DNA of 64,000 nt from Rhodocyclaceae bacterium (lineage in GTDB: Bacteria; Pseudomonadota; Gammaproteobacteria; Burkholderiales; Rhodocyclaceae): NCBI GenBank assembly GCA_006218025.1, contig VBWA01000002.1, forward strand, positions 62,001-126,000. The letters run 5' to 3'. The notes beneath the pieces were generated by a model. The model did not search any database, was not told where the DNA came from, and worked only from the letters and a program-made list of their open reading frames with translations. Within the stretch, counting starts at the first letter, position 1. Every line of letters starts with the position of its first letter. The translations under genes were made by a program, and so were the position numbers. Shown here piece after piece: positions 1,439-56,034 of the stretch.

Positions 1439-2761
1439 TTATTTTTGCCGGGCCTGGCGCCTGATGGCGGCCGAGGTGGCGATAGCACCCTCGCGGGCAA
1501 AGCTTTCAACGTTGTCTTCCAGTGAGTCGGGGTCGTACAGGTAATTCACCATCACGCCGAAGGACTGCTGCATGCCCTTCGACGACGCATCGCCCAGCGG
1601 GTTGATGCGCTCGATGCGGGCGCCGTTGCCAAGGTGGAAACGCGCAACCGCATCGAGCGGCTGCCGGCCGTCGCCGCGGCTGGCCTTGGCCAGCGTCAGG
1701 TAGCGCGCCGCGAGCCTCGACAGCGCGTCATTGACCTTGCGCGCCGTTGCTGCTTTCTGTGCCCAATCGCCCGCGGCCAGTTGTCCGGCATCGAGCTCCA
1801 GCCCGACATCGACCACGTCCTGCGGATTCTTCCGCACCCACGCCCCAAATCCGGGCAGGGGCGACAGGGTGGCGAAATGCCGCAGCTTGGGAAAATCGCG
1901 CTGCAGGTCGTCGATCACGCGCTTGAGCAAAAAACTGCCGAAGGACACGCCGCGCAGGCCGGCCTGCGTGTTGGAGATCGAATAGAAGATCGCGGTATCG
2001 GCGCGGCGCGAGTCGAACACCGGCGCGTGCTCGTCGAGCAGGGCCTGGACGCTGTCGGCCAGATGATCGGTGAGCGCCACCTCGACGAAGATCAGCGGTT
2101 CCATCGGCATGCGCGGATGAAAAAAGGCGTAGAGGCGACGGTCCGAATCGAGCCGGTTCTTGAGGTCGGTCCAGGAGCGGATTTCATGCACCGCCTCGTA
2201 CTGGATCAGTTTTTCCAGCAGCGCCGCCGACGAATTCCAGGTGATGCGCTGCAACTCGAGAAAACCGACATCGAACCACGCGGCCAGACGCGATTCGAGT
2301 TCGCGGTCCAGCGGCGCCAGCTCGGTGTCTTCGTCCAGATAGCGCAGCAGGTCGGCGCGCAGATCGACGAGGAACTTGACGCCCTGCGGAATCGCGTTGA
2401 ACTGGGTCAGGATGCGCAACCGCGCCGAGCGCAGGGCCGCGCGCAGTTCGGCCTCCGCATCCCATTGGCCCTCCGTGCCGATCGAACGCTGATAGGCCTC
2501 GTGGGCTTTCGCCACGCGCCCGGGCTCGGGCCCGAACTCGAGCGAGATCAGGCGCAGGAAGGCGTGGCGTCCGCTGTCGTCGAGTTCGAGATAGGTCTGC
2601 GCCAGGGCCGCCGCCCGGATGCGCGCCGAAACCTCGCCGCCCCGCGCTTCGGCGCACTCGGTGAGCAGCCGGCGCCACTCGCCGAGCTGTTTCGGCCCGA
2701 CGCTTGCCGTACCGCCAGCGCCGACTATCGAACGCAGACGCTGCACCAGTCCCTCAACCAT
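1439..2761 (-). CDS. Malonyl-CoA decarboxylase, carrying an in-frame copy of the dispersed 24-bp element
   Basis: Cytoplasmic enzyme that decarboxylates malonyl-CoA to acetyl-CoA. The 440 residues match the MCD family along their length: an N-terminal helical domain, then the acetyltransferase-like catalytic half with PLIFVEVALTDHLADSVQ, DTAIFYSISNTQAGLRGVSF and FATLSPLPGFGAWV, ending MVNYLYDPDSLEDNVESFA. The conserved Ser and His of the catalytic half fall in these blocks. Near the N-terminus, residues of the form SIVGAGGTAS are encoded by a copy of the dispersed repeat at 2706-2729. The start overlaps the end of the upstream regulator gene by 8 bp. With the regulator and TRAP genes it forms a probable malonate-catabolism operon; a malonyl-CoA synthetase gene is not visible here and may lie to the left. 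Confidence 0.93.
   Translation of the reverse strand: MVEGLVQRLRSIVGAGGTASVGPKQLGEWRRLLTECAEARGGEVSARIRAAALAQTYLELDDSGRHAFLRLISLEFGPEPGRVAKAHEAYQRSIGTEGQWDAEAELRAALRSARLRILTQFNAIPQGVKFLVDLRADLLRYLDEDTELAPLDRELESRLAAWFDVGFLELQRITWNSSAALLEKLIQYEAVHEIRSWTDLKNRLDSDRRLYAFFHPRMPMEPLIFVEVALTDHLADSVQALLDEHAPVFDSRRADTAIFYSISNTQAGLRGVSFGSFLLKRVIDDLQRDFPKLRHFATLSPLPGFGAWVRKNPQDVVDVGLELDAGQLAAGDWAQKAATARKVNDALSRLAARYLTLAKASRGDGRQPLDAVARFHLGNGARIERINPLGDASSKGMQQSFGVMVNYLYDPDSLEDNVESFAREGAIATSAAIRRQARQK
2706..2729 (+). repeat. Dispersed 24-bp element, copy 1 (inside malonyl-CoA decarboxylase)
   Basis: GCCGTAC then CGCCAGCGCCGACTATC, one mismatch to the common form. Read on the coding strand it gives IVGAGGTA in frame near the protein N-terminus. 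Confidence 0.9.
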
Positions 2762-3425
2762 GAACGACCTCCGCTGCCAGCGACATTTCGCGCAGGGCCT
2801 CGAGCTGCGCCAGCAGATGGCCGCGCATCACCCGCTCCGCCGCATCGGCATCCTGGCGGTGCAATGCCTGCATCAGCGCACGATGCTCCGCCAGCGACGC
2901 GGCCAGCCGGCCCTCCAGCCGCAGCGAATGATGGCGGGAAAGTTTCAGCAGCTTGCGCAGATCGCCAATGACCATCTGCAGCCAGCGGTTGCCGGCGCAT
3001 TCCTGCAACTGGTCGTGGAAGACGTAGTTGGTCTCGTAGTAGCGATTCACGTCGTCCGCCGCCGCGTGCTTTTCCAGTCTTTCATGCAGCGCGTCGAGCG
3101 CCTTGAGCTGGGCAGGCGTGCGCTTCTCCGCCACTTCATGGGCGACGCGCCCTTCGAGCGTGGCCATGATGGGAAAAATCTCCTCGAGATCGCGCAGCGT
3201 CAACTCGGTGACAAAGCAGCCCTTGTGCGGCTGCAGATCGACCAGTCCTTCCGCGGACAGGACCTTGAGCGCTTCGCGCAGCGGCGTGCGGCTGATGCCG
3301 AGCTGCTCGGCCAGCAGCGCCTCGTCCAGCCGCTGACCCGGCGCGAGCACGTGATTGTAGATCTGCTCGCGCAGCAAATCGACGGCCTGCTGCGACAGGG
3401 ATGAGCGATTAACCCTTGATTTCAA
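2754..3425 (-). CDS. GntR-family transcriptional regulator, FadR/FCD subgroup (MatR-like)
   Basis: DNA-binding repressor of 223 residues. The N-terminal winged helix (about residues 10-75) carries REQIYNHVLAPGQRLDEALL and the recognition helix LGISRTPLREALKVLSAEGL, classic for GntR. The rest is an all-helical FCD ligand domain whose metal/ligand residues include NYVFHDQL and a late HRALMQALHRQDADAAERVM block. It is the first gene of the operon with malonyl-CoA decarboxylase and the TRAP transporter, overlapping the former by 8 bp. A perfect 10-bp palindrome upstream (3453-3462) is the likely autoregulatory operator. Control by malonate or malonyl-CoA is inferred from the gene order, as in rhizobial mat loci. 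Confidence 0.92.
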   Translation of the reverse strand: MKSRVNRSSLSQQAVDLLREQIYNHVLAPGQRLDEALLAEQLGISRTPLREALKVLSAEGLVDLQPHKGCFVTELTLRDLEEIFPIMATLEGRVAHEVAEKRTPAQLKALDALHERLEKHAAADDVNRYYETNYVFHDQLQECAGNRWLQMVIGDLRKLLKLSRHHSLRLEGRLAASLAEHRALMQALHRQDADAAERVMRGHLLAQLEALREMSLAAEVVHG

Positions 3426-3452
3426 TTGGGATTGGTAATTGCATACGATATT

Positions 3453-3462
3453 TTGTATACAA
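3453..3462. promoter_or_regulatory. Palindromic operator for the FadR-type regulator
   Basis: TTGTATACAA is a perfect palindrome 28 bp upstream of the regulator start. Sites of this TTGTATACAA kind are typical for FCD-type GntR repressors. A related half site, GCATACGATA, lies just to the left at 3441-3450. Confidence 0.7.
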
Positions 3463-3530
3463 CATACCGGAGCTTGGGTGGCGAGGTCAAGCTGCGCTGC
3501 AACAGGAAATTCACAGCTTGTGAAGAAATC

Positions 3531-3573
3531 GTAGCGAGCGGGCCGCAGCGGGGTGCGGCCGGAGCGCAGCTAC
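3531..3573. repeat. Nested inverted repeat between divergently placed units
   Basis: GTAGC at 3531-3535 pairs with GCTAC at 3569-3573, and GGCCGCA at 3541-3547 pairs with TGCGGCC at 3554-3560. There is no T-run, so it is not a standard terminator. It lies just beyond the 3' end of the HAD gene and upstream of the malonate operon, and could be a REP-type element or a transcript-end hairpin. Confidence 0.5.
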
Positions 3574-3621
3574 GCCGCCCAAGCCCCGATCCGGTCCGCG
3601 CAGTAGATTTATTCATAAGCT

Positions 3622-4314: not shown

Positions 4315-4730
4315 AACCCTGCTGCTGCAGGCGCATGATTTCGACATAGCCGGCCTTGGCATAGGCGATGTTGTCGATCATGTCGTCCTTGGTCAGATGC
4401 ATCGACTGCATCGAATTGCCGCAGGCGACGAAACGCACGCCGGCCGCCATCGCGTCCTGCACCCGGTTCGCGGTCAGCGCATCGGCCTTGAGCATGCCGA
4501 GCCCCGGCCCGATTGCGACGACCGTGACCTCGACCTTGCCGAGTTCTTCCTGCACGTTGTTGACGTTGGACAGCACCGTGTTCCACTTCTTCGAGTCGTC
4601 TTCATTGACCTGAAACACGATGCGGTTCTTTGCCGCCGGGCTGCCGGCCGCATCTGCGGCACGAACGCCGGAGGTCGCCAGGGCGAACAAGGCCATCAGC
4701 GCAAATGTCGTAAATCGTCTCAGCTTCATG
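4295..4730 (-). CDS. Exported DsrE/DsrF-like protein
   Basis: Small protein of about 144 residues with a Sec signal peptide ([20 protein letters not shown], cleavage near GVRA). The mature part looks like the DsrE fold: a first strand [11 protein letters not shown], a helix [15 protein letters not shown], then [15 protein letters not shown] and the strand [11 protein letters not shown] carrying a single Cys at the position used by DsrE-type sulfur carriers. An ATG at 4730 gives the signal peptide; longer upstream frames add nothing. The gene precedes the HAD gene and overlaps it. A role in sulfur handling is possible from the family, but many exported DsrE-like proteins have no known function. 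Confidence 0.8.
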
Positions 4731-4781
4731 TCGGTTATCCTTCGCAGCACTTCATCGGCTTCACTCTGCCACAAATTCCCC

Positions 4782-5891: not shown

Positions 5892-5954
5892 ACGAAGCAG
5901 AGACGGCAAACTGCTAGGATAGCCCCTGCCTCCCTAATTCGTCCTGCTCACACG

Positions 5955-6401: not shown

Positions 6402-6447
6402 GCCGGACCGGTTCCGTGCCACGACCGGCAAAACGACAGGAGCAATC

Positions 6448-7233
6448 ATGGCGGGATTCGTGAGCAAGACAGCAGTCGCCTACCTGTTATGGCTGGCGCT
6501 GGCAGGGCCGGCCCTGGCCGATGTCCGCGAGCTTCTGGCGGAGGTGCTCGTCGCACATGGCGGCGGCGCGGCGCCGGCGGCGATCCACGAACGCGGCGTG
6601 ATCGAATCCCTGCGCCGCGGCAACGGGGTGGTGGAACGCTGGTGGCAGGCGCCCGATCGCTTCCGCATCGAAATCGGGTATCCCGGTGAAGCGGAATCGC
6701 GTCTGCTGCGCGGCAACGAGGCATGGCAGCAGGGCCAGCCGGCCACGGCCGCGTTTCACGGCTCGCTGCTGCTGCAGGCGGCACGCATGGCGCTGCCCTG
6801 GCGGCTGCAGGAAAACGCGCGCCGCGTGATCGATCTCGGCACCGGAAAAAGCAGCGACGGGAAACCGGTCAGGGTGCTGGAATGGCCTGTGCAGAACGGA
6901 ATCAAGCTGATCGTCGAAATCGATGCGGAATCCCGGCTGATCCTGCGCTCGCGCGGAATACTGACCATCAACAACGCCTCGATGGAGTTCGCCACCGGCT
7001 ACGAGGACTACCGCATCGTCGCCGGCCGGCGCGTGGCCATGATCGAGCGGCATTTCGCGATGGGCGAATACACCGGCACCACCACGCTCGACAGCGTCGA
7101 ATTCCCCGCCGTACTGCCAGCGCCGACTTTCGCTCCCCCGGCCGGCGCAGGCGGTCTTCGAGTGAAGGATTCCAGCACGCCGCGCGACAAGCCGGTTCTG
7201 ACGCAGGCAGCGCGGCCGCTCAGCGGCCCTTGA
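6448..7233 (+). CDS. Exported LolA/LolB-like protein of unknown function, with element copy near C-terminus
   Basis: 261-residue secreted protein; the N-terminus YLLWLALAGPALA is a signal peptide. The mature sequence looks like the LolA-type half-barrel seen in outer-membrane sorting proteins: RWWQAPDRFRIEIGYPGEAE, ESRLLRGNEAWQQ, then KLIVEIDAESRLILRSRGIL and a late strand VEFPAVLPAPTFAPP. No Lys-Asp catalytic set or lipobox is seen. The AVLPAPTF part is encoded by the dispersed 24-bp repeat at 7108-7131, read in a different frame and orientation from most other copies. The 3' end overlaps the convergent enoyl-CoA hydratase gene by 14 bp. Function unknown. Confidence 0.75.
   Translation: MAGFVSKTAVAYLLWLALAGPALADVRELLAEVLVAHGGGAAPAAIHERGVIESLRRGNGVVERWWQAPDRFRIEIGYPGEAESRLLRGNEAWQQGQPATAAFHGSLLLQAARMALPWRLQENARRVIDLGTGKSSDGKPVRVLEWPVQNGIKLIVEIDAESRLILRSRGILTINNASMEFATGYEDYRIVAGRRVAMIERHFAMGEYTGTTTLDSVEFPAVLPAPTFAPPAGAGGLRVKDSSTPRDKPVLTQAARPLSGP
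7108..7131 (+). repeat. Dispersed 24-bp element, copy 2 (inside exported protein gene)
   Basis: GCCGTAC then TGCCAGCGCCGACTTTC. Encodes AVLPAPTF in frame on the plus strand. Confidence 0.9.
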
Positions 7234-9305: not shown

Positions 9306-9841
9306 GCCTTGATGTTCTCCGCCCACCACAGCCGCGCCTTGAGACCCCAGGTCGTCGCATAGCCGACCACGCGGAAACGCACATTGCCGGCGGCGTCGAC
9401 CACGAAATGCGTCGGTACGCCGCGCACTCCCCAGTTGATCGCGTGGCGGCCATCGGCATCGATCAACTGCGGCAAATCGATGCCGCGCTCCTTGAGATGC
9501 TTCAGCACCGTCGCTGCGTCGCCCGACTGCATCGCCACCGAAATCACGCGATGATCCTTCGCCACGGAAACGATGTTGCCCTCCTCCGCCTTACACACCG
9601 GGCACCAGGTCGACCAGAAAGCCACCAGCGTCGGCGTGTCACCAGCGCCGACTTTCACGGCGCTACCATCGGTAAGCACACCGACTAGCGGCGGCGCGAT
9701 GCCTTCGGGCAGGTCCCGCGTCTGGTAATACTGGGCGCCAAGAATCACGCCGAGGATGAGCAGGGCTTCCAGCAGCCAGCGTTTCCAGCGAGAACGATCG
9801 GACAAATAGGTAAGGATGCGGGTTAGAGGCATGTTAGCCAA
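9302..9841 (-). CDS. Membrane-anchored thioredoxin-like protein (TlpA/DsbE type) with in-frame element copy
   Basis: 179 residues. One N-terminal transmembrane anchor (RWLLEALLILGVILGAQYY) places the thioredoxin domain in the periplasm. The redox site is WCPVC in AFWSTWCPVCKAEEGN, and the cis-proline is in RGVPTHFVVD. It probably reduces disulfides or serves cytochrome c maturation or a similar task. Just before the first strand of the fold the sequence AVKVGAGDTPTLV includes seven to eight residues encoded by the dispersed repeat at 9633-9656. A second Met four codons in (start 9832) is an alternative start. The stop overlaps the MFS start. It is the first gene of the 7220-9841 unit, next to the accessory island. 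Confidence 0.88.
   Translation of the reverse strand: MANMPLTRILTYLSDRSRWKRWLLEALLILGVILGAQYYQTRDLPEGIAPPLVGVLTDGSAVKVGAGDTPTLVAFWSTWCPVCKAEEGNIVSVAKDHRVISVAMQSGDAATVLKHLKERGIDLPQLIDADGRHAINWGVRGVPTHFVVDAAGNVRFRVVGYATTWGLKARLWWAENIKA
9633..9656 (+). repeat. Dispersed 24-bp element, copy 3 (inside thioredoxin-like gene)
   Basis: GGCGTGT then CACCAGCGCCGACTTTC. On the coding strand it gives KVGAGDTP in frame, just before the thioredoxin fold. Confidence 0.88.
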
Positions 9842-11844: not shown

Positions 11845-12378
11845 GGGATCTCTAAGCTGAATGAATGCCTTTGATTGTGCCAGGACAAAGACATTACTGC
11901 TCTACCAACGTACCGTTGAAGGGGAGTTGCCGTCTTACCAGCGCCGACTTTTGCAGCCTGTCCGGCGTGGGCTGACTTTCTCAGAGCCACAAGCTTTCAA
12001 GCGGCAGCGGCACGTCCTTGGATAGATCGCGAGACAGGTAGAAACGGACAGCAGTGCAACCAGCAACTCGCGGGGCGATTGCTAGCATCCAGAGTTTTCA
12101 GTGTGTTGCGGCAGACAAGGTGGAGAAATTGAAAGGTAGATTCATCGCCGAATCTTAGTAGGCGCAACGACTTTTCGCCGATGACTAAGGAGCGGACTTG
12201 GCTCATCTGGTGAGCCCGCAATCGGAGAAACTGGGGCCACTTTCGAAATTGCTTTCCTCCGACGACAGCGGAACAGACGAGGCACGATATGACGGACTCG
12301 AACTTTAAGGAAACTATAGGTGGCACCGGCATTAATGCATCGCCGTATGGTTTCTCCATTCAATCACAGGGAGTTTCA
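11845..12378. other. Gene-poor spacer within accessory island
   Basis: About 530 bases between the divergent DUF2075 gene and the small protein at 12379. Two minus-strand frames of 120 and 73 codons (11997-12359, 12142-12363) have no recognisable domain and no good ribosome site, and I do not call them. The spacer contains dispersed element copy 4 at 11929-11952. Promoters for both flanking genes should lie here. Confidence 0.6.
11929..11952 (+). repeat. Dispersed 24-bp element, copy 4 (intergenic)
   Basis: GCCGTCT then TACCAGCGCCGACTTTT; two mismatches in the core. Lies 84 bp upstream of the DUF2075 gene start. Confidence 0.85.
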
Positions 12379-12768: not shown

Positions 12769-13695
12769 ATGATTTCTTTGGAAGCGATGCGTTCCTATCT
12801 CTCAACCAGCGGCCGAGATCAACGGCACACGATGGTGAGAGCAGAGTTTCGTGGCGCTGTAGCTGCTACTGGCCACGGCTCCTGCCTCTCGTCCACGGGT
12901 CTGATTGCTCGCAGCACTGGTGCCGGCAACTTCGGTCATCACGCTATCGTCGTCTTTCCCCAGATCATGGAGCCCGGCGCTGACTACCGCCCGACGCGAG
13001 CGCTGCCAAATCCTCCAATTGGCCTGCATACGATCTGTTCCACCTTCCGGCAGCTTGGTATCCAGAGTTACTTCTGCATTCCGTCGGTAGCCGTTGCGAA
13101 TGACAGTATCAGCATGACGTGGCGCGCGAAAGAACTTGGCATTCCGTGGGAAGACGCCTATCAGGATTTTCCCGGCAAACTGGCAGGCTTTCAGCCGCGC
13201 GGACGGCGCTACAACTTCTTACGCAATCACACCGATGTTTCCATCGTGCCGGATGCCTACATCCCGGAAGAGTTTTCCAAAGAACACCTGCGAGTCGCAC
13301 TGAGCGATCGCTACATTTCGGAGATGTCCGACGTGGACGGGATTTTCTGGGGCAGGCAGTACACCTACCCACTGGAGATCAAGGAAAAGACCTGTAACCG
13401 CGACCCCCGCCTCGGCGAGTATTTCGGGCTCGATGTTGGCCCCTTCGTGAAGCTGGCGCATTACGCGGCAAAGCGGGGAAATCTCCATTCACTGTTCATC
13501 GTTCGCGAGATCGCCGATCCAGAAGCGCGCGAGTTGGTGGCTTGGCGCTACATCACCTTCGACCGGCTTGCGCAATTCGCTTCGTGGGTACAGCAGCAGG
13601 GTGGACGCGGCATGACAGGCGGCAATTCGGCTGTCGTGAAAATTCCGAAATGCGAGTTTGAAGTACTGGATGCCAACGCCCTCGCGTCTCTCTGA
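12769..13695 (+). CDS. Putative PD-(D/E)XK-fold nuclease (restriction-like)
   Basis: 308 residues. The catalytic pattern of the PD-(D/E)XK fold is visible near residues 190-210: SDVDGIFWGRQYTYPLEIKE, i.e. Asp, then E-x-K about a dozen residues later. The N-terminal part has a conserved-looking SYFCIPSVAVAND strand and FPGKLAGFQPRGRRYN. A strong GGGGGAGG sequence lies just upstream; it is 12 bases from the ATG at 12769 and only 3 from an alternative TTG at 12760, so the start is uncertain by three codons. It is preceded by a small unknown gene. The 3' end is duplicated at 14501-14590. A restriction-type or defence role is likely by motif and context but not proven. Confidence 0.7.
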   Translation: MISLEAMRSYLSTSGRDQRHTMVRAEFRGAVAATGHGSCLSSTGLIARSTGAGNFGHHAIVVFPQIMEPGADYRPTRALPNPPIGLHTICSTFRQLGIQSYFCIPSVAVANDSISMTWRAKELGIPWEDAYQDFPGKLAGFQPRGRRYNFLRNHTDVSIVPDAYIPEEFSKEHLRVALSDRYISEMSDVDGIFWGRQYTYPLEIKEKTCNRDPRLGEYFGLDVGPFVKLAHYAAKRGNLHSLFIVREIADPEARELVAWRYITFDRLAQFASWVQQQGGRGMTGGNSAVVKIPKCEFEVLDANALASL

Positions 13696-13701
13696 ATCCT
13701 C

Positions 13702-13725
13702 GCCGTTCCGCCAGCGCCGACTTTC
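13702..13725 (+). repeat. Dispersed 24-bp element, copy 5 (intergenic)
   Basis: GCCGTTC then CGCCAGCGCCGACTTTC, a perfect core. It lies between the nuclease stop (13695) and the end of the higA-type antitoxin (13732). Confidence 0.93.
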
Positions 13726-13731
13726 AGAAAA

Positions 13732-14082
13732 TCAAGCCGCCGCCAGTTCCCCTGCCGCCTTCTTGCGGGCGCCCTTGCGCGCTTTTGCCGGAGTTGCCGG
13801 CGCAGCGTGCAGCTTGATCTTGAGTGCCTTGATGACTTTCAGCATGGTCGAGAACTCGGGGTTTCCGGTTGCAGACAGGGCCTTGTAAAGTCCCTCGCGC
13901 GTCAGGCCGGTGTCGCGGGCAAGCTGGGACATGCCGCGAGCTCGGGCAATGTCGTTGAGCGCGGCGCGCACCAGACTGCCGTCGCCGGGATCTTCATCCA
14001 GGCATGCATCGAGGTAGAGCGCCATGTCTTCCTCGGTCGCGAGGTAATCAACAACGTCCCACCGGGTGAATTTCTCAGCCAT
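13732..14082 (-). CDS. HigA-type antitoxin (addiction module antidote)
   Basis: 116 residues. It carries the signature of the addiction-module antidote family: a preceding helix EEDMALYLDACLDEDPGDGS, then a helix-turn-helix ARARGMSQLARDTGLTREGL and YKALSATGNPEFSTMLKVIK, ending with a Lys/Ala-rich basic tail (KARKGARKKAAGE). It should bind and neutralise the RelE-like toxin encoded two bases upstream and repress the shared promoter. The ATG at 14082 is the family start; the longer frame to 14349 overlaps the toxin gene and is rejected. It is followed by a copy of the dispersed element. Confidence 0.88.
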   Translation of the reverse strand: MAEKFTRWDVVDYLATEEDMALYLDACLDEDPGDGSLVRAALNDIARARGMSQLARDTGLTREGLYKALSATGNPEFSTMLKVIKALKIKLHAAPATPAKARKGARKKAAGELAAA

Positions 14083-14384: not shown

Positions 14385-14500
14385 GGCAGAAGTGTAATCC
14401 ATGATTCACATATCGACAAGGGAGAAAATGCCCCGGCCCTGACTGCGCGTTTTTGCCCACGCACCGATGCCTGGGTATCCTGATGCGTGCAATAGCGTGG

Positions 14501-14590
14501 CATGACAGGCGGCAATCGCGCCGTTGTGAAGATTCCGAAATGCGAGCTCGAGGTGCTGGACGCAAACGCGATGGCGTTCTTTAAACCATC
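14501..14590 (+). pseudogene. Remnant of a second copy of the nuclease gene (3' end only)
   Basis: This stretch matches 13611-13700, the last 28 codons of the nuclease gene. It encodes MTGGNRAVVKIPKCELEVLD against MTGGNSAVVKIPKCEFEVLD. Most base differences are synonymous, which suggests that the copy diverged as a working gene before the rest of it was lost. The stop is no longer at the same place. As in the intact copy, the dispersed element follows directly (14591-14614). Confidence 0.85.
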
Positions 14591-14614
14591 GCCGTCTCGC
14601 CAGCGCCGACTTTC
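14591..14614 (+). repeat. Dispersed 24-bp element, copy 6 (intergenic)
   Basis: GCCGTCT then CGCCAGCGCCGACTTTC, a perfect core. It lies just after the nuclease remnant and 19 bp before the end of hicB. Confidence 0.93.
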
Positions 14615-14632
14615 AGCACTTCAACCCGCCCA

Positions 14633-15022
14633 TCATCCCCGCAGCGCCAGATGCGCGATGAATCCGGAGCGTGATTCGCCCGCCGCCTTGGCCGCCGCAT
14701 CGATCCGGCGCAGAACGCGGGCAGGCAGCGTGATGTTCACCCGTTCCGCCTTGTCCGACAATGACGCCAGATCAACGCTGACCACTGCCCAGATCCAGCC
14801 GGCAAACTCCGGATTGGCCTGGTGTTCGGCAATCGGCCGAGCTTCGGGCACCGCGCCGCCGTCGTCGATCACCGTCTCCAGCCACAGTTCGATGGCTTCC
14901 CTGGCGTTGTCGATGGCTTCATCCAGCGTGTCGCCGGCCGAGAAGCAGCCGGGCAGATCGGGCACCACGACGCCGAACGCGTGATCGGCATCGCCCGCTT
15001 CAATGGCAATTGGATATTTCAT
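14633..15022 (-). CDS. hicB: HicB-family antitoxin
   Basis: 129 residues. The N-terminal HicB RNase-H-like fold is clear: MKYPIAIEAGDADHAFGVVV, then PDLPGCFSAGDTLDEAIDNA and a helix AREAIELWLE. The C-terminus has a ribbon-helix-helix-like part (VNITLPARVLRRIDAAAKAA, then GESRSGFIAHLAL) for DNA binding. It should neutralise the HicA toxin encoded 13 bp upstream and autoregulate the pair. Element copies lie on both sides of this pair (14591 and 15265). Confidence 0.93.
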   Translation of the reverse strand: MKYPIAIEAGDADHAFGVVVPDLPGCFSAGDTLDEAIDNAREAIELWLETVIDDGGAVPEARPIAEHQANPEFAGWIWAVVSVDLASLSDKAERVNITLPARVLRRIDAAAKAAGESRSGFIAHLALRG

Positions 15023-15264: not shown

Positions 15265-15288
15265 GCCGTCCCGCCAGCACCGACTTTC
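15265..15288 (+). repeat. Dispersed 24-bp element, copy 7 (intergenic)
   Basis: GCCGTCC then CGCCAGCACCGACTTTC, one core mismatch. It separates hicA from the next toxin-antitoxin pair. Confidence 0.92.
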
Positions 15289-17973: not shown

Positions 17974-17997
17974 GAAAGTCGGCGCCGGCGGGACGGC
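17974..17997 (-). repeat. Dispersed 24-bp element, copy 8 (intergenic)
   Basis: Plus strand reads GAAAGTCGGCGCCGGC then GGGACGGC, i.e. the opposite orientation to the copies above. It lies between the rhodanese stop and the SAH riboswitch. Confidence 0.92.
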
Positions 17998-21100: not shown

Positions 21101-21901
21101 CTCGACGACGCCGTCGTCGGCGAAGCGGCGCGCAACGTGTTTGCCGATGGCAAGGCAATGCTGCAGCAACTGATAGCGGAAAAGTGGATCAGCGCCAATG
21201 CGGTGTTCGGCCTCTTCCCGGCCAACGCCGTGGGCGACGACATCGTGTTCTACGCCGACGAGACACGCGACAAGGCGGCAATGACCTGGCACGGCCTGCG
21301 CCAGCAGCAGGAGCGCCCCGCCGGCAAGCCGCAGCAGTGCCTCAGCGACTTCGTGGCGCCGGAAGTCGGCGCTGGTGGTACGGCGAACTGCGCGGCGGAT
21401 TACGCCGGCGCCTTCGCCGTCACGGCCGGCATCGGCATCGAGCAAAAGCTCGCCGAGTTCGAGGCGCAGCACGACGACTACCGCGCGATCATGCTCAAGT
21501 CGCTGGCCGACCGGCTGGCCGAAGCGGCCGCCGAATGGCTCCATCGCGAAGTACGCACTAACTACTGGGGCTACGACAGCGCGGAGTCGCTCGACCGCGC
21601 GGCGCTGATCGCCGAGCAGTATCGCGGCATCCGCCCGGCGCCGGGTTACCCGGCCTGCCCCGACCACACGTCGAAGGGAGCGCTGTTCACTCTGCTCGAC
21701 GCGCCGAAAAACGCCGGCATGGGGCTCACCGAAAGCTATGCCATGACGCCCGCCGCATCGGTCGCCGGCTTCTACCTCGCACACCCCGAGGCGCACTACT
21801 TTGCCGTCAGCAAGATCGGCCGCGACCAGCTTGAAGATTGGGCAAGACGCACCAACTATCCTATTTCAGAAGCCGAAAAATGGCTCGCCCCCCTACTGTG
21901 A
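18182..21901 (+). CDS. metH: Cobalamin-dependent methionine synthase, carrying an element copy
   Basis: 1239 residues, slightly longer than E. coli MetH. It moves the methyl group of 5-methyl-THF to homocysteine through methylcobalamin. Domains in order: homocysteine/zinc domain ([10 protein letters not shown] near the start, Zn ligands in FGLNCALGA and [11 protein letters not shown] near residue 316), pterin domain ([18 protein letters not shown]), cap and cobalamin domain ([31 protein letters not shown] with the cobalt His near 771), and reactivation domain ([13 protein letters not shown] near 1150). At 21361-21384 the dispersed repeat adds VGAGGTA in the reactivation domain where E. coli has only a short loop (KLSGK). 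A degraded copy may lie at 20068-20085. The start at 18182 has GGAG six bases upstream; an ATG at 18170 is less well placed. Confidence 0.97.
21361..21384 (-). repeat. Dispersed 24-bp element, copy 9 (inside metH)
   Basis: GGAAGTCGGCGCTGG then TGGTACGGC. It encodes EVGAGGTA in frame, in the reactivation domain between DFVAP and ADYAGAFAV. Confidence 0.92.
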
Positions 21902-36967: not shown

Positions 36968-36991
36968 GCCGTGTCGCCAGCGCCGATTTTT
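36968..36991 (+). repeat. Dispersed 24-bp element, copy 12 (intergenic)
   Basis: GCCGTGT then CGCCAGCGCCGATTTTT, two mismatches. It separates the VapBC pair from the next antitoxin gene. Confidence 0.88.
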
Positions 36992-37561: not shown

Positions 37562-37585
37562 GCCGTCCCGCCAGCGCCGACTTTC
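37562..37585 (+). repeat. Dispersed 24-bp element, copy 13 (intergenic)
   Basis: GCCGTCC then CGCCAGCGCCGACTTTC, a perfect core. It begins two bases after the stop of the broken toxin gene. Confidence 0.94.
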
Positions 37586-37589: not shown

Positions 37590-38074
37590 AAACCCGATGT
37601 CGCGAAAACTATTCCGAACCCGACCCCAATAGCTGCCCACCAAGTTCCCGGTACGCACTGGTGATGCGCCATCCTGAATACAGCAATGACTCCCTCACGT
37701 CGCCGCTGGAAGTACTACCTACACCGGTTCACGAAGATGGCCAGATACCAATCATTCACGGCGTCGTATGGAAGCAAGACATCGTGGACAACTTTAATTG
37801 GAAGTTGGCACAACTATCTTCCCAATTTATCGTGGCAAACAGCCGAAACATATTGGAGCGATGCACGCGTTAAGAAGGACGGCTTTCGATTTGTTTTCTA
37901 CGTTACCCATCACGCGCACCGGTTTTCATCCCCTCTGACCCGCCGAGCGAGAAAGTAGGTCGCCCATCGGGGCGAGACCCGGCAAGAGTCGGCGCTGACC
38001 ACTCGGCGCGCAGGGCCTCTGCCGCGGCCCTTCGCCTACAATAGAGCCCTTCTGCTCCATCGAATACCCGCATC
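37590..38074. other. Gene-poor spacer before the large oxidoreductase
   Basis: About 485 bases. Two plus-strand frames (37661-37873, 70 codons; 37686-37958, 90 codons) overlap each other and have no recognisable domain, and the codon use is unlike the neighbouring genes, so I do not call them. Element copy 14 lies near the end. The promoter of the oxidoreductase gene must be in the last 100 bases. Confidence 0.6.
37984..38007 (-). repeat. Dispersed 24-bp element, copy 14 (intergenic)
   Basis: AAGAGTCGGCGCTGACC then ACTCGGC; several mismatches outside GTCGGCGCTG. It lies 67 bp before the oxidoreductase start. Confidence 0.75.
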
Positions 38075-41000
38075 ATGACCGCCCGCCTGCGCGAGATTCC
38101 CTACAACTACACTTCGTTCTCCGACCGCGAGATCGTCATTCGCCTGCTGGGTGCGAATGCATGGGCGACGCTGACGGAACTGCGCAGCGAGCGCGTCACC
38201 GGGCGGTCCGCGCGCATGCTCTACGAGGTGCTGGGCGACATCTGGGTGGTGCGGCGCAACCCCTATCTGGAAGACGATCTGCTGGGCAATCGCGAACGAC
38301 GCGAGGCGCTGGTGGAAGCCCTGCGCCACCGGCTGCGCGAGATCGACAAGCGCCGCGAGGGCAACGAGCGTGTCGCGCTGCTGCTGACCGCCGCACAAAC
38401 CGCCGTGCAGTCCTTCGAGCGCTGGTTCGAGGACACCTGCAGCCTGCGCAAGAAGGCGCTCAAGGTACTGGCGCGCCACACCCGCCGCGATAACGTCTGC
38501 TTCGACGGCCTGGCCCGCGTTTCGCATGTCACCGACGCCACCGACTGGCGCGTCGAATATCCGTTTGTGGTGCTGGCGCCCGACACCGAAGAGGAAATGG
38601 CGCCACTGGTGCGCGCCTGCATCGAACTCGGCCTGACCATCATCCCGCGCGGCGGCGGCACCGGCTACACCGGCGGTGCGGTGCCGCTCGATGCACTGTC
38701 GGTGGTGATCAACACCGAGAAACTGATCGACCTCGGCACCGTCGAGATGCAGCGCCTGCCCGGCACCGACAAGGACTACGCGACGGTGCGCACCGGCGCC
38801 GGACTGGTCACGCGGCGCGTCATGGAAGCCGCGGAAAAGGCCGACCTGGTCTTCGCCTGCGACCCGACTTCGGCCGATGCTTCCTGCATCGGCGGCAACA
38901 TCGCGATGAATGCCGGCGGCAAGAAGGCCGTGCTGTGGGGCACGGCGCTGGACAACCTGGCCTCGTGGCGCATGGTGACGCCCGACGGCAACTGGCTGGA
39001 CGTCGAACGCCTGAACCACAATTTCGGCAAGATCCACGAGCAGGAACTGGTCAGCTTCCGCCTCGTGCGCTGGGACGCGACGGGCAAGAAAAAACTGGGC
39101 GAGGAGCAGCTCGACGTGCCCGGCCGGCTGTTCCGCAAGGAAGGCCTCGGCAAGGACGTCACCGACAAGTTCCTCGCCGGCATTCCCGGCGTGCAGAAGG
39201 AAGGCACCGACGGCCTGATCACCTCGGCGGTCTGGGTGCTGCACAAGATGCCGCCGGTGACGCGCACGGTCTGCCTCGAGTTCTTCGGCCGCGTCACCGA
39301 TGCCGTGCCGTCGATCGTCGAGATCACCGATTACTTCAAGCCGGGCGGCGCAGGCCTCGCCGCCGGCGTGCTGCTCGCCGGACTGGAGCACCTCGACGAG
39401 CGCTATGTGCGTGCTGTCGGCTACGCGACCAAGGCAAAACGCCACGGCCGGCCAAAGATGGTGCTGATCGGCGACATAGTCGGCGCTGACGACACGGCGG
39501 TGATGGCCGCCGCCTCGGAAGTGGTCAAGCTGGCGAATGCGCGCGGCGCCGAGGGCTTCATCGCGGTTTCGCCCGAGACGCGCAAGAAGTTCTGGCTCGA
39601 CCGCGCCCGCACCGCCGCGATCTCGAAGCACACCAACGCCTTCAAGGTCAATGAGGACGTGGTGATTCCGCTGCCGCGCATGGGCGACTATTGCGATGGC
39701 ATCGAGCGCATCAACATCGAGCTGTCGCTCGCCAACAAGATCGCGCTGGCCGACGCGCTCGCCGAATTCCTCAAGGGCGAATTGCCGCTGCACGCGGGCG
39801 ACGCCAACCTCGACCCCGACCTGCTGCTGGGCGACAAGCGCGAACAGGCGCTGGAACTGGTCGCTGGCGTGCGCGCGAACTGGCAGACGCTGCTCGACAA
39901 TCTCGACCGGCACTTCCCCGAGCTGCAGGATTACCGCCTGCGGGTGTCGTGGAAAGCCGAACTCAAGGCGCCACTGGAGGGCATCTTCGAGGGCAATGCC
40001 TTCCGCCCGGTGCTGGCCCGCATCGAGAGCATCCACCTGGATATCCTGCGCGGCCGCGTGTTCGTCGCCCTGCACATGCATGCCGGCGACGGCAATGTGC
40101 ATACCAACATTCCGGTGAATTCCGACCACTACGCGATGCTGCAGACGGCCTACAAGGCCGTCGAGCGCATCATGGCGCTGGCGAAAAGCCTGGGCGGGGT
40201 GATTTCCGGCGAACATGGCATCGGCATCACCAAGCTGGAATTCCTCAGCGACGACGAGATCCGCCCCTTCCGCGACTACAAGCAAAAGATCGATCCCGAG
40301 GGCCGCTTCAATCGCGGCAAGCTTATGGCGGGTGGCGACCTGGCCAACGCCTACACGCCCTCCTTCGCGCTGCTCGGCGTCGAGTCGCTGATCATGGAGC
40401 AGTCGGACATCGGCAAGATTTCCGAGTCGATCAAGAACTGCCTGCGCTGCGGCAAGTGCAAGCCGGTCTGCTCGACCCACGTGCCGCGCGCCAACCTGCT
40501 CTACAGCCCGCGCAACAAGATCCTCGGCACCTCGCTGCTGATCGAGGCCTTCCTCTACGAAGAACAGACCCGGCGCGGCATCAGCCTGCAGCATTTCGAC
40601 GAGTTCTCGGACGTCGCCGACCACTGCACCGTGTGCCACAAGTGCGTGACGCCCTGCCCGGTGGACATCGACTTCGGCGACGTGTCGGTGGCGATGCGCA
40701 ACTTCCTGCGCCGCCAAAAAAAGAAGAAGTTCAATCCCGGCACGGCCGCGACCATGGCCTTCCTCAGCGCCACCGATCCGTCGACCATCAAGCTGGTGCG
40801 CGCCGGCATGATCCAGCTCGGCTACAAGGCGCAGCGCCTGGGCCACACGCTGGCGAAGTCCTTCGGCCTGATCCAGGACAGCGTGAAACACCCGCCGGCC
40901 ACGCTGGGGCGGCCCGACATCAAGGCGCAGGTGATCCACTTCCTCAACAAGCCGATGCCGAAGAACGTGCCGAACCGCACTTCGCGCGGTCTGCTCGACG

Positions 41001-41845
41001 TCGAGGACGACAGCCTGATCCCCGTAATCCGCGATCCCAAACGCGCAAGCGATGACTCGGAAGCGGTGTTCTACTTCCCCGGCTGCGGTTCGGAGCGTCT
41101 GTTCTCCCAGGTCGGCCTCGCCACCCAAGCCATGCTGTGGCATGCCGGCGCCACCACGGTGCTGCCGCCGGGCTACCTGTGCTGCGGCTATCCGCAGACC
41201 GCCAGCGGCGACGAAGACAAGGGCCAGGCGATCACCACGGCCAACCGTGTGCTGTTCCACCGCGTCGCCAACACGCTGAACTATCTCGACATCAAGACCG
41301 TGGTGGTCTCCTGCGGCACCTGCATGGACCAGTTGCTGAAGTACGAATTCGGCAAGATTTTCCCCGACTGCCGGCTGGTGGACATCCACGAATGGCTGTT
41401 CGAAAAGGGCATCAAGCTCGATGGCGTCAAAGGCACGCAGTACATGTACCACGAGCCCTGCCACACGCCGATGAAGCATCACTCGGGAATCAAGGTGGCC
41501 AATGTCCTGATGGGCCAGCGCGTCGACCTCAGCGATCGCTGCTGCGGCGAATCCGGCTCGCTGGCCGTGTCGCGGCCGGACATTTCGACCCAGATCCGCT
41601 TCCGCAAGCAGCAGGAAATCGAGACGGGCGCTACCGCACTGAGAGTCGGCGCCGGCGACACGGCGGTGAAAATCCTCACTTCCTGCCCGTCCTGCCTGCA
41701 AGGCCTGTCGCGCTACGAGAACGATGCCTCCATCACGGCCGACTACATCGTGGTCGAAATGGCCAAGGCGATTCTGGGCCCGGACTGGATGCAGAACTAC
41801 ATACGCGCCGCGAACAACGGCGGCATCGAACGGGTATTGCTCTAG
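38075..41845 (+). CDS. FAD-linked oxidoreductase fused to Fe-S/CCG domains (DUF3683 type), with two element copies
   Basis: 1256 residues, cytoplasmic or membrane-associated. Order: DUF3683 region (start to about 170), FAD-binding domain with [18 protein letters not shown] near 189, FAD-oxidase C domain, including [18 protein letters not shown] and [16 protein letters not shown], then two 4Fe-4S motifs ([16 protein letters not shown] near 789, [17 protein letters not shown] near 851) and two CCG domains ([14 protein letters not shown]... and [17 protein letters not shown]). This resembles D-2-hydroxyacid (lactate/glycolate) dehydrogenases with a heterodisulfide-reductase-like tail; the substrate is not known. 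Two copies of the repeat code for [10 protein letters not shown] (near 468) and [10 protein letters not shown] (near 1190), both in frame with intact motifs around them. Confidence 0.93.
39475..39498 (-). repeat. Dispersed 24-bp element, copy 15 (inside FAD/Fe-S gene)
   Basis: CATAGTCGGCGCTGACG then ACACGGC. It encodes IVGADDTA in frame. Relatives have a similarly short, acidic loop here, so insertion may have replaced residues. Confidence 0.8.
41641..41664 (-). repeat. Dispersed 24-bp element, copy 16 (inside FAD/Fe-S gene)
   Basis: GAGAGTCGGCGCCGGCG then ACACGGC. It encodes RVGAGDTA in frame, directly before the [13 protein letters not shown] motif. Confidence 0.9.
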
Positions 41846-49599: not shown

Positions 49600-50997
49600 T
49601 CACTGGCGCTGGTCGGCGATGCCGCCGCCCAGCGCCTTGTAGAAGCTCGCCGCCGTCGACAGCCACTGGCGCCGTACCGCCAGCGCCGACTGTTGCGCGG
49701 CGAAGTGTTCGCGTTGCGCGTCGAGCAGTTCGAGGTGACTGGAGACGCCGGCCTTGTAGCGGGCATCGACGATCTTCAGGCGCTGGCTTTGCGCAGCGAC
49801 ATTGGCTTCCTGCGCCTGCAGTTGTTCCGCCAGTTGCTCGCGTGCGGCCAGGAGGTCGGCAATTTCGCGGAATGCCTGCTGGATCGCCTTCTCGTACTCG
49901 GCCACGGCAATGGTCTTGCGCGCCGTTGCCAGATCGACGTTGCCGCTGCTGCGGCCCGCGTCGAACAGGGGCAGGCGCAAGGCCGGGACAAAGTTCCAGG
50001 CGCCGCTGCCGGCATCGAACAAACCGGATAGCCCCCGGCTGGCGGTCCCGAGAGCGGCGGTCAGCACGATCTTCGGCAGGAAGGCGGCGCGTGCGGCACC
50101 GATGTTGGCATTGGCCGCGATCAGTTTCTGTTCGGCGGCCAGGACGTCCGGACGGATGAGCAAGACTTCCGCCGGCAGGCCGACGGCCACCTCGGCAATC
50201 AGGCCCGGCTGAGCCAGTTTGCCGCCAGCCACCTGCGCCGGCGAAGCGCCGACCAACAGACGCAAGGCGTTTTCTGCAGCCGCATGGCTGCGCGAGAGGC
50301 TGGCAGTTTCGGCACGCGCATTCTGGAAGGCGCCGTCGGCTTGCAGATAGTCGAGGTCGCCGGCGAGGCCGACGTCACGACGGCGGCCGATCAGCGTGCG
50401 GGTCTCCTCGCGACTTTTCGTGGTGGCCTGGGCCAGTTCGAGTCGCTCGCCAAGTTCCAGCAGGCTGAGCCAGGCGTTGGCCACATCCGCAATCAGCGAC
50501 AGGCGGAAGGCCTCGCGCGCATAGTCGCTGGCGAGGAAGTTTGCGCGCCCGGCATCGTCGAGACTCTTGACCCGGCCCCAGAAATCCAGCTCGAACGCAG
50601 CGACGGCAAGATTGACGTCGTAGCGCTGGCTGTTCTGCTGGCGACCCGTGCTGGACAGATCGGCAGGTGTCAGCGAGGCGGCGCGCTGGGCGGCAAGATC
50701 CACCGTCGGGAAACGCTCGGCGCGGGCAATACCGGCCAGCGCGCGGGCCTCATCGACCCGCGCCACGGCGACCCGCATGTCACGGTTGTGTTCCAGCGCG
50801 GCGGCAATCAGGCTTTGCAGGCGCGGATCGGGAAAAAATGTGCGCCAGTCTGTCGGAATCGCCGTATCGCCAGCGCCGACTCTTGCTTCCGTCGGCCAGC
50901 CGGCGGGCACCGGCGGCGCCGGGCGCTGATAATCGGGCGTAAACGAACAGCCAGCCAATGCCAGGGCAATCACGAGGGGAAGTGTCTTACGCATCAT
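49600..50997 (-). CDS. RND efflux outer-membrane lipoprotein (NodT/OprM type), with two element copies
   Basis: 465 residues, outer-membrane channel of a tripartite pump. Lipoprotein signal LVIALALAGCSF with the lipobox Cys. The fold of OEP family follows: TFFPDPRLQSLIAAALEHNR, DMRVAVARVDEARALAGIAR, LIADVANAWLSLLELGERLE, and AVAEYEKAIQQAFREIADLL. Near the N-terminus [13 protein letters not shown] comes from the element at 50861-50884. Near the C-terminus QSALAVRRQWLS matches a copy at 49671-49694 in another frame. Residues around both copies still fit the family. The start overlaps the end of the RND pump gene by 11 bases. Confidence 0.93.
   Translation of the reverse strand: MMRKTLPLVIALALAGCSFTPDYQRPAPPVPAGWPTEARVGAGDTAIPTDWRTFFPDPRLQSLIAAALEHNRDMRVAVARVDEARALAGIARAERFPTVDLAAQRAASLTPADLSSTGRQQNSQRYDVNLAVAAFELDFWGRVKSLDDAGRANFLASDYAREAFRLSLIADVANAWLSLLELGERLELAQATTKSREETRTLIGRRRDVGLAGDLDYLQADGAFQNARAETASLSRSHAAAENALRLLVGASPAQVAGGKLAQPGLIAEVAVGLPAEVLLIRPDVLAAEQKLIAANANIGAARAAFLPKIVLTAALGTASRGLSGLFDAGSGAWNFVPALRLPLFDAGRSSGNVDLATARKTIAVAEYEKAIQQAFREIADLLAAREQLAEQLQAQEANVAAQSQRLKIVDARYKAGVSSHLELLDAQREHFAAQQSALAVRRQWLSTAASFYKALGGGIADQRQ
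49671..49694 (+). repeat. Dispersed 24-bp element, copy 17 (inside NodT-type gene, C-terminal)
   Basis: GCCGTAC then CGCCAGCGCCGACTGTT, one mismatch in the tail. The coding strand gives QSALAVR, a third reading frame of the element. Confidence 0.85.
50861..50884 (+). repeat. Dispersed 24-bp element, copy 18 (inside NodT-type gene, N-terminal)
   Basis: GCCGTAT then CGCCAGCGCCGACTCTT. The coding strand gives RVGAGDTA in frame, just after the lipoprotein signal region. Confidence 0.92.
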
Positions 50998-54127: not shown

Positions 54128-54130
54128 GGC

Positions 54131-55309
54131 TTACTTCTTTTCTTCATTGGGCTTGGCAGCGGTGGCCGGCGCCACGGGCGGTTTGCCGCCGGCACCTGAC
54201 GGTGGCGCCATCAGCGCGGCGCCCGGCGTCCAGGGCATTGGTTTCACCACGGCGCCCGGTCTGGCCTTCTGCAGGCCATTGACGATGACCTTTTCACCAC
54301 CCTTTAATCCGTCGTCGACAATGAAGTCGCCGCCCGCCATGGTGCTGGTCCTGATCGGTCGCGGCGCCACCTTGCCTTCGGTGTCGACGGTCATCACGAA
54401 CTGGCCCTGGGCGCCGCCCTGCACCGCGCGCTGTGGCACGCGAATCGCGCTGTCGAGCTGGGCCTGGGGGAAACGCACGCGGACGAAGGTACCGGGCAGC
54501 AGTTCGCGCCGCGGATTGGGGAATTCGGCACGCAAGAGCACGGCGCCGCTGTTCGGATCGACGGCGAGATCGGTGAACTGGAGCCGACCTTTCTCCGCAT
54601 AAAGCGAACCGTCTTCGAGTACCAGTTCGACTCGTGCCGCATCGGCCTTTTTCTGCTTGCCGCTGCGGACCGCCTGCTGCAGGCGCAGCAGATCGGAATA
54701 TGACTGCGAGAACTCGACACGGATCGGATCGAGTTGTTCGATGGTCACCAGATGTGTCGCCTCGCCCTTGCCGACCAAGGCACCTTCAGTAACCAATGCC
54801 CGACCGATGCGGCCGGAAATCGGCGCTGGCGGCACGGCGTTTTCGAGGTCGAGCCTGGCCTTCGCCGACGCGGCTTCGGCCTGCTTCATCCGCGCCTGGG
54901 CGGCATCGAACTCCTGCTGACTGACCGCCTTGATGTCGAGCAGGGGCTTGTAACGATCGGCAGTCGCCTTGGCCGCCGCAAGGTCTGCTTCGGCCGCCGC
55001 CGCCTGGGCCTGGTAGGTACGGGCGTCGATCCGGAATAATGGCGTGCCGGCGGCTATGTCGGTACCTTCGGCGAACAGGCGTTTCTCGACGACGCCTTCG
55101 ACGCGAGCCCTCACTTGTGCGGAACGCACCGCCTGCAGCCGGCCGGGCAAGTCTTGGGTGATGGTCGCGCTGCCGGCGGCGATGGTGATCACATCCACCT
55201 CGGACTGCGGCATGCCTGCTCCCGGCCCCGCCCCGGGCGGGCCTTTTTTCTCGCCGTCGCCGCAAGCGGCCAAGAATGCGAGCGACAGCAAAGGGATAAT
55301 TTTATTCAT
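54131..55309 (-). CDS. RND efflux periplasmic adaptor subunit (AcrA/MexA type lipoprotein)
   Basis: 392 residues. Lipoprotein signal IIPLLSLAFLAACGDGEKK. Lipoyl and helical hairpin parts: DLPGRLQAVRSAQVRARVEG, VVEKRLFAEGTDIAAGTPLF, RIDARTYQAQAAAAEADLAA and DIKAVSQQEFDAAQARMKQA, then the barrel motif PISGRIGRALVTEGALV. It connects pump and channel. The barrel motif overlaps an element-like sequence at 54815-54838 (in VPPAPISGRIG), but since APISGRIG is conserved in this family it may be chance. The start overlaps the end of the tetR gene by four bases. Confidence 0.94.
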   Translation of the reverse strand: MNKIIPLLSLAFLAACGDGEKKGPPGAGPGAGMPQSEVDVITIAAGSATITQDLPGRLQAVRSAQVRARVEGVVEKRLFAEGTDIAAGTPLFRIDARTYQAQAAAAEADLAAAKATADRYKPLLDIKAVSQQEFDAAQARMKQAEAASAKARLDLENAVPPAPISGRIGRALVTEGALVGKGEATHLVTIEQLDPIRVEFSQSYSDLLRLQQAVRSGKQKKADAARVELVLEDGSLYAEKGRLQFTDLAVDPNSGAVLLRAEFPNPRRELLPGTFVRVRFPQAQLDSAIRVPQRAVQGGAQGQFVMTVDTEGKVAPRPIRTSTMAGGDFIVDDGLKGGEKVIVNGLQKARPGAVVKPMPWTPGAALMAPPSGAGGKPPVAPATAAKPNEEKK

Positions 55310-55944
55310 GGGGTGCTCCGTTGGGGGACGGTAGGGGGAGGGGAAGCGTCTGGCGCAAGGGCTCGCAGGTAACAATCGATAATCTGACCGACAAGGCCGG
55401 GATCCGGTTCGGGGGGGGGATCGCCCGAGAACAGGTAATGACTGCGGTCGGCGCCGACCAGCATGGAGAGCAGTAGATTGGCGGCAAATTCGGGGCATGC
55501 GGAACGCAATTCGCCTTTGCTCATCGCCTCCTTCAGCACCACTGACAAGCGCGCGGCGGTCTGTGTCGGGCCGTTGCGATAAAAGCTTGCGGCAAGTTCC
55601 GGGAAGCGCACCGTTTCGGCGGCGAGAGTGCGAAAGAAACCGAGTCCCTCGGCGCTCAGGACTTTGTCTCTATACATGGCGCCAAAACGGAGCAAGCGCT
55701 CACGTAACGATTGCTGGTTTGCGTCCAGTGTAATCAGCAGGGCGGCAGTCGCCTGCCTGACGACCTCGCCGAACAAATCCGCCTTGCAAGGAAAATGATT
55801 GTAGAGGGTTTGCCGGGCGACACCTGCCCGCGCCGCCACGCGTTCGACGCTGGCACGATAACCCTCCTCGACAAAGACTTCCGCAGCAGCCTGGATCAGC
55901 CGGGCGCGGCAGTCGTTCAGATCGGTCTCCAGAAGCTGTTCCAT
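55306..55944 (-). CDS. TetR-family repressor of the RND operon
   Basis: 212 residues. The N-terminal HTH is ARLIQAAAEVFVEEGYRASV, then ERVAARAGVARQTLYNHFPC and KADLFGEVVRQATAALL, typical of AcrR/TtgR-like regulators. The C-terminal domain (AETVRFPELAASFYRNGPTQ and LLSMLVGADRSHYLFSGDPP) should bind the pump substrates. It is the first gene of the RND operon and a good inverted repeat lies just upstream (55957-55977), so autoregulation and repression of the pump are expected. Confidence 0.92.
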   Translation of the reverse strand: MEQLLETDLNDCRARLIQAAAEVFVEEGYRASVERVAARAGVARQTLYNHFPCKADLFGEVVRQATAALLITLDANQQSLRERLLRFGAMYRDKVLSAEGLGFFRTLAAETVRFPELAASFYRNGPTQTAARLSVVLKEAMSKGELRSACPEFAANLLLSMLVGADRSHYLFSGDPPPEPDPGLVGQIIDCYLRALAPDASPPPTVPQRSTP

Positions 55945-55956
55945 GAAGCGGCCAAA

Positions 55957-55977
55957 TAGACTGGACGGTACAGTCTA
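55957..55977. promoter_or_regulatory. Inverted-repeat operator for the TetR repressor
   Basis: TAGACTG, seven bases, CAGTCTA, a perfect 7-bp inverted repeat 12 bp upstream of the tetR start. The spacing fits a TetR-family operator. Confidence 0.75.
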
Positions 55978-56010
55978 GTTCAGGCCTGCACGAATTGCAA
56001 ACCCCTGATC

Positions 56011-56034
56011 GGCGTATCGCCAGCACCGACTTTC
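56011..56034 (+). repeat. Dispersed 24-bp element, copy 19 (intergenic)
   Basis: GGCGTAT then CGCCAGCACCGACTTTC, two mismatches. It lies between the tetR operator and the ATP synthase terminator. Confidence 0.9.

Follow-up and report, generated by a model that had tools for sequence, protein, structure and literature searches.

A dispersed 24-bp motif, GCCGTNNCGCCAGCGCCGACTTTC, recurs throughout a 64,000-nucleotide stretch of the genome of a Rhodocyclaceae bacterium (GCA_006218025.1, contig VBWA01000002.1, positions 62,001 to 126,000; here called the window) and across the rest of that genome. Judged by its pattern of occurrence in sequence data, the motif is probably an uptake-sequence-like self tag of some Rhodocyclaceae. 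We give close to an even chance to the wider proposal that Rhodocyclaceae are a third family with sequence-specific self-recognition for transformation, by means of a long, bipartite, dialect-bearing tag and without canonical ComEA in the Sulfuritalea-like lineage. Membership in the class of DNA uptake sequences (DUS) and uptake signal sequences (USS) is not claimed, the likeness being one of sequence features. No report of the motif, nor of a DNA uptake sequence in Rhodocyclaceae, was found in the open-licence literature.

The window contains 21 matches to GCCGTNNCGCCAGCGCCGACTTTC at ≤3 mismatches (13 plus, 8 minus), and 100 dinucleotide shuffles of it contain none. Genome-wide counts used the same pattern and threshold, with the reversed pattern as a control; the window’s own genome (G000; 4,441,755 bases in 141 contigs) carries 660 copies (322 plus, 338 minus; control, 1). 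The dispersed element proposed in an earlier, sequence-only reading of the window is thus real and genome-wide and, like DUS and USS, is a short motif strongly over-represented on both strands of the chromosome. A profile of 92 copies (≤4 mismatches; window plus samples of the complete congener G002) extended the consensus by two 5′ bases, T (59%) and C (95%), with little conservation outside the extended consensus. Within it, CGT and GCGCCGACT are conserved at 95 to 100%, the first of the two variable bases is seldom T, and the second is a pyrimidine (C or T) in 90%. The motif may be described as a bipartite candidate recognition site of ~26 bp, TCGCCGT-NY-CGCCAGCGCCGACTTTY. In 400 kb of G002, 5, 15, 20, 21, 10, and 8 copies have 0, 1, 2, 3, 4, and 5 mismatches, respectively (reversed control, 0, 0, 0, 0, 0, and 1), and motif and control counts are alike from 6 mismatches upward, so the mismatch spectrum is that of a maintained population, not of a long decaying tail.

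Lineage restriction with dialects is another feature in common with DUS and USS. Titles among the exact matches listed include Sulfuritalea, Rhodocyclaceae, and Rhodocyclales and also Tepidicella xavieri. All 25 genomes searched from the genus of G000 (G000 included) carry 37 to 663 copies each. At family level, at least 100 copies were found in 21 of 199 genomes, representing 6 of 68 sampled genera (g1, g18, g22, g142, g169, and g192); genomes from other families of the order hold at most 6 copies each (291 genomes), and those from other families of the phylum hold at most 3 (396 genomes). Words were also counted de novo, without a pattern given beforehand, in 73 to 120 kb of each genome (400 kb of G002). 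In G000, G002, and G460 the top words included the motif core; in G332 and G388 they included GACTGACTTT (12 and 8 seen versus 0.02 to 0.03 expected), and in G364 CGTCGACTTT (11 seen versus 0.38 expected). CGCCGT lies at the main-motif distance in 18 of 20 sites around the GACTGACTTT anchor, as does consensus GCCGT around GTCGACTTT in G364 (exact in 5 of 11). Since the left box keeps its distance from both anchors, these are dialects, in two other genera, with the same layout (left CGCCGT, right GACTTT) and a changed middle. No such motif was among the top words of G016, G361, G377, G383, G242, or G441; in G174, with 486 copies, the list was headed by a local repeat, and de novo counts can therefore overlook a motif that exists. 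The top words of G343 did not assemble into a motif.

On a tree built from one gene, with many weak forks, the motif-rich rows need five label changes, four of them forced by well-supported branches; patchy gain, loss, or import of the motif is therefore possible. Copies in some motif-poor genomes are clustered (five of seven in G397:C1:1461266-1502244, four of seven in G372:C50:1691-12983), as if these segments had been imported from motif-rich donors. Sequence L319 (IMGVR_UViG_3300009945_000063) has five exact copies at 882-2238, four of them at 316-bp spacing, within a tandem array of similar units that looks integron-cassette-like (attC-like ends, by eye) and lies near an open reading frame with a phage-integrase N-terminal SAM-like domain.

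Copies in the window are given below; gene calls were made with an ad hoc codon-usage script, on which “intergenic” rests. The 19 copies that the sequence-only reading considered good include 18 of our 21 matches, the other (37984) having 5 mismatches, and they divide into 12 plus and 7 minus rather than 13 and 6. Two of its four weak candidates were borne out (54815 is a good copy with 2 mismatches, and 33071 corresponds to 33068, with 3), and for two (20068 and 36130) nothing matches at ≤6 mismatches; 29977 (minus, 3 mismatches) had been overlooked. As it noted, there is no copy in 56095-63058, labeled there as ATP synthase (none at ≤5 mismatches).

2706-2729, plus: 1 mismatch; in malonyl-CoA decarboxylase gene (opposite strand)
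7108-7131, plus: 1 mismatch; within called gene 6448-7233, which has no Pfam match
9633-9656, plus: 2 mismatches; in redoxin/thioredoxin-like gene (opposite strand)
11929-11952, plus: 3 mismatches; intergenic
13702-13725, plus: perfect; intergenic, in a local duplication shared with 14591
14591-14614, plus: perfect; intergenic
15265-15288, plus: 1 mismatch; intergenic
17974-17997, minus: 1 mismatch; intergenic, upstream of metH
21361-21384, minus: 2 mismatches; metH (B12 methionine synthase), EVGAGGTA, 10-residue indel versus G022
26755-26778, minus: 1 mismatch; NAD-dependent epimerase-like gene, kept in G010, G002, and G022
29977-30000, minus: 3 mismatches; aminotransferase gene, kept in three relatives (3 to 4 mismatches)
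32459-32482, minus: 2 mismatches; within a called gene
33068-33091, plus: 3 mismatches; in MatE gene (opposite strand)
36968-36991, plus: 2 mismatches; intergenic, kept in G010
37562-37585, plus: perfect; intergenic, also perfect in G010, differing only at the NN bases
37984-38007, minus: degraded, 5 mismatches; intergenic
39475-39498, minus: 3 mismatches; DUF3683/FAD-oxidase gene, gap-free in 28 relatives, motif in 5 (≤4 mismatches)
41641-41664, minus: 2 mismatches; length-variable linker of the DUF3683/FAD-oxidase gene
49671-49694, plus: 2 mismatches; outer-membrane efflux protein gene (opposite strand), in four relatives at 2 to 4 mismatches
50861-50884, plus: 2 mismatches; near the start of the efflux protein gene of 49671 (opposite strand)
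54815-54838, minus: 2 mismatches; HlyD/CusB-like gene, kept in four relatives (2 to 4 mismatches)
56011-56034, plus: 2 mismatches; intergenic, before 56095

Relatives in the genus have most sites in common; between genera, sharing is rare. Of the 21 window sites, those alignable were shared in 10 of 11 cases with G002, 10 of 12 with G010, and 10 of 12 with G022; in the reverse direction, 9 of 13, 5 of 7, and 6 of 7 of these relatives’ copies were shared with the window. Two genomes of other genera shared 0 of 7 (G272; two weak; reverse, 0 of 2) and 1 of 3 (G330; reverse, 1 of 1). With one best ortholog counted per own-genome site, 35 of 83 sites were alignable; 26 of these keep the motif and 9 do not, with 0 clean deletions. 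In the 23 gap-free orthologs the 22 fixed bases are 91.1% identical, compared with 76.4 and 79.5% for the flanks and 54.3% for the NN bases.

Site turnover was surveyed in 245 sequences (2.31 Mb). The 359 copies lying 250 bp or more from an end gave 856 pairs (pairs ≥97% identical and alignments of <25 bp on a side were left out). The motif was near in 352 pairs, weak in 55, and missing from 449. The last, which include redundant pairs, were gap-free (212), small-gapped (217), or spanned by a large deletion (20); 237 of 449 were thus gapped at the site, whereas of 880 control windows placed 70 bp off, 74 were gapped and 806 gap-free. Per site, the closest motif-less relative was gap-free at 27, small-gapped at 56, and cleanly deleted at 3 of 86 sites; one of the three is metH 21361, where a motif-bearing 10-residue segment is missing in G022. 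From these gap counts, the sites lie in permissive places, and the pattern of a clean insertion is seen at few of them. Base changes or short tract replacement, between which these data do not distinguish, seem to create and remove copies, rather than insertion of a unit; a minority in gappy loops, such as metH 21361, could be insertions, and the small gaps at many sites leave room for this.

The DUF3683/FAD-oxidase gene (window 38075-41845) holds two of the copies. At 39475, where all 28 relatives are gap-free, the five motif-holders include G380 of another genus; G000 reads A there and has ATA, a rare codon (24 of the 809 Ile codons counted over called genes of the window), and five of eight translated motif-less relatives have E in the position of the A. 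We infer the direction of change at single sites such as this one. In the linker at 41641, several genomes have the motif in a shifted register. Gain and loss without unit insertion, and a motif that is itself conserved while occupying permissive genic and intergenic positions, are as in DUS and USS.

The turnover data bear directly on a non-autonomous mobile element of the REP/REPIN or miniature inverted-repeat (MITE) type, spread by a transposase, which we regard as improbable. Such an element would account for short, dispersed copies on both strands with sharp ends and ~2.9-fold intergenic enrichment, for copies in indel-variable loops (metH 21361, for example), and for the 20 large deletions and 217 small gaps among the 449 motif-less pairs. 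It is at odds with the rarity of clean empty sites (3 of 86 in the survey, 0 of 35 in the own genome), with the gap-free alignment of 39475 in 28 relatives, and with the position of 54 of 85 copies inside genes. REP sequences are extragenic palindromes whose unit is a doublet, according to PMC3116915; here close pairs are hardly more frequent than expected (4 versus 2.6 at spacings under 200 bp), and a hairpin was ruled out in the four copies tested, which fold no better than shuffles. The sequence-only reading was therefore correct that this is not a usual REP; its suggestion of a mobile or copied repeat, for which empty sites would be expected, was not supported when sites were compared across relatives, window sites being mostly shared within the genus.

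Placement was assessed in 463 kb of G000, where 54 of 85 copies lie in called genes and 31 lie between them (12.6% of bases are non-coding). One frame is preferred by genic copies (29 of 54, mostly xVGAGxTA-like peptides), and a second peptide class (AVxPAPT-like) accounts for 11 of 54. A regulatory role, as an operator or as a signal in RNA (transcription factor site, terminator, or RNA element), would fit the 31 intergenic copies, which exceed expectation; the genic majority on either strand, the lack of dominance of convergent or divergent gene arrangements among the 85 copies, the lack of structure in the four copies folded, and the unrelated host genes make this explanation very improbable.

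A site for chromosome structuring or DNA processing, to which a nucleoid, segregation, or recombination protein would bind inside the cell and which selection would keep for its density and not for uptake, is a more serious alternative, though an unlikely one. Conservation, dispersal, and insertion-free renewal would fit any strongly selected genome-wide site, and ComEA was not found in the genus by TIGR00426. Chi, KOPS, and similar guide motifs are about 8 bp long and polar; the motif resembles them as an over-represented genome-wide site but, at 24 bp, is very long for one and is not polar. Both orientations occur on both sides in 20 sampled 20-kb stretches of the complete genome G002, so orientation does not follow the replichore, and an apparent polarity among the G002 matches listed was ruled out by these stretches. 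A core chromosome function would sit oddly with the scarcity or absence of copies in most of the family’s sampled genera, and dialects would need new specificity at many sites.

DNA of low GC content (<60%), used as a proxy for recently acquired DNA, is copy-poor in G002 and not significantly so in G000. In G000 and G002 pooled, 5 of 24 five-kb windows under 60% GC have a copy, versus 112 of 161 others (p 1.3e-5); for G002 alone the values are 1 of 15 versus 56 of 79 (p 4e-6). One copy-free G002 stretch (55% GC) holds TraN, TraU, and HipA genes, and another (59% GC) holds metabolic and transport genes.

The uptake-tag reading is the one we favor. A surface DNA receptor would probably bind the bipartite tag, with a minor type IV pilin as the leading guess; tag-bearing DNA would be preferentially taken up and recombined, and tagged alleles, being taken up more often, would let the motif accumulate and be repaired by transformation. 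We propose that such accumulation and repair explains the motif’s density, conservation, site turnover, and permissive positions; the cells would then be transformable, the motif would affect uptake, and the binding protein would presumably be such a pilin. ComEC, PilQ, and minor-pilin genes are present. All 49 family genomes searched have a passing ComEC match, PilQ passes in 12 of 12, and a PF16732 (ComP_DUS) pilin passes in 47 of 49 family genomes and 0 of 14 controls. In G000 the PF16732 gene is followed by GspH-, PilW-, and PilY1-family genes, and, given this minor-pilin cluster around it, we do not regard it as proving a receptor.

Neisserial DUS offer the closest comparison. PMC2397512 describes them as over-represented in the core genome, absent from recently acquired genes, and highly conserved in permissive positions, with gains partly by recombination; PMC3630211 reports dialects following phylogeny, some family members without obvious DUS, and copy numbers of 943 to 3603. 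PMC2346458 gives one preferred orientation in reading frames for known uptake sequences, and PMC7371117 gives an atypical DUS distribution in integrative conjugative elements. Of these features, conservation in permissive positions, dialects, motif-less family members, and a preferred frame all have counterparts here; scarcity in atypical DNA has one in a single relative (G002). Like Neisseriaceae DUS, the motif is betaproteobacterial, runs to hundreds of copies where DUS run to hundreds to thousands, is lineage-restricted with dialects, lies in and between genes, and occurs in genomes with minor-pilin genes. Unlike them (10 to 12 bp), it is 24 to 26 bp and bipartite, is present in fewer copies, gives no evidence of a CTG core, and occurs in a genus in which TIGR00426 did not find ComEA. 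The long form of the Pasteurellaceae USS has a core with outlying conserved positions, a layout that the motif shares. It also shares with the USS a preferred orientation in genes (PMC2346458); it differs in that its sequence is unrelated, its bacterial class is another, and its site is GC-rich.

A number of results weigh against an uptake tag. The first concern the receptor and the uptake machinery. ComEA (TIGR00426) passes in 10 of 49 genomes, in 2 of 20 motif-rich genomes, and in 0 of 10 genomes of the genus of G000. Weak matches in 8 of these 10 lie in frames of about 800 to 940 aa, presumably Tex, a name that no search returned. In G000, PF12836 picks out nothing but the long frame; in G016 there are three further passing matches (frames of 181 to 314 aa), and G016 is the only genome of the genus in which frames under 400 aa pass. 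The absence of ComEA is serious but not fatal, since Helicobacter uses another periplasmic receptor. DprA was found in 11 of 12 genomes, the one without it being G000 (141-contig assembly). ComEC and the pilins are equally common in motif-poor genomes, and both ComEC and PF16732 are ruled out as predictors of the motif; a strong PF16732 pilin (>55 bits) is in fact found in 18 of 24 motif-poor versus 2 of 20 motif-rich genomes, a comparison confounded by phylogeny (the remaining 5 of the 49 genomes are intermediate or dialect). Congener G016 has ComEC and PF16732 and only 37 copies.

The other adverse results concern the motif itself. Known uptake cores are 9 to 12 nt according to PMC12616744, and the motif is far longer; its copies are fewer than the 943 to 3603 of DUS (PMC3630211). 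Low-GC depletion was not significant in G000 alone (4 of 9 windows versus 56 of 82 others, p 0.26), and copy number correlates with GC at only 0.12 in 10-kb windows of G000; as the depletion, split by genome, holds in G002 only, it is not established for G000. A redundant conservation count over 319 pairs gave 84.8% identity for the motif and 82.1 and 90.5% for the flanks. It was set aside because its pairs are redundant (one gene comes from 29 genomes), and this over-represented gene probably dominates it.

Uptake sequences are stated in PMC12616744 to be known in two families only, and such sequences have so far been described in Neisseriaceae and Pasteurellaceae; views of their origin and change therefore rest on two cases. 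If the reading is true, a third family, with dialects, with motif-rich beside motif-free genera, and with motif-rich lineages that lack canonical ComEA, would allow the origin of uptake sequences, the identity of the receptor, and drive versus selection to be tested by comparison. In practice the motif could serve to flag imported DNA in environmental genomes and as an aid to genetic work on these bacteria.

Some further features of the window and its counterparts were seen. A local duplication (window 13606-13741 and 14496-14630, ~890 bp apart) carries one motif copy in each unit, and a HicB-like antitoxin gene lies nearby at 14633-15022. At the counterparts of 32459, 41641, 49671, 50861, and 56011, G010 reads GCGTCTACT or GCGTCGACT where the main motif has GCGCCGACT, perhaps a dialect shift inside the genus. 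Around the window’s counterpart in the same genome (G010:C39:68001-140000), the 11-mer TTTCAATCCTC and its neighbors occur ~21 times in 72 kb in a CRISPR-array-like arrangement. G022:C2:198001-250381 holds a local repeat family with the words AGGGCCGACTT and ACTTCAGTCGG, at 6 to 7 copies in 52 kb.

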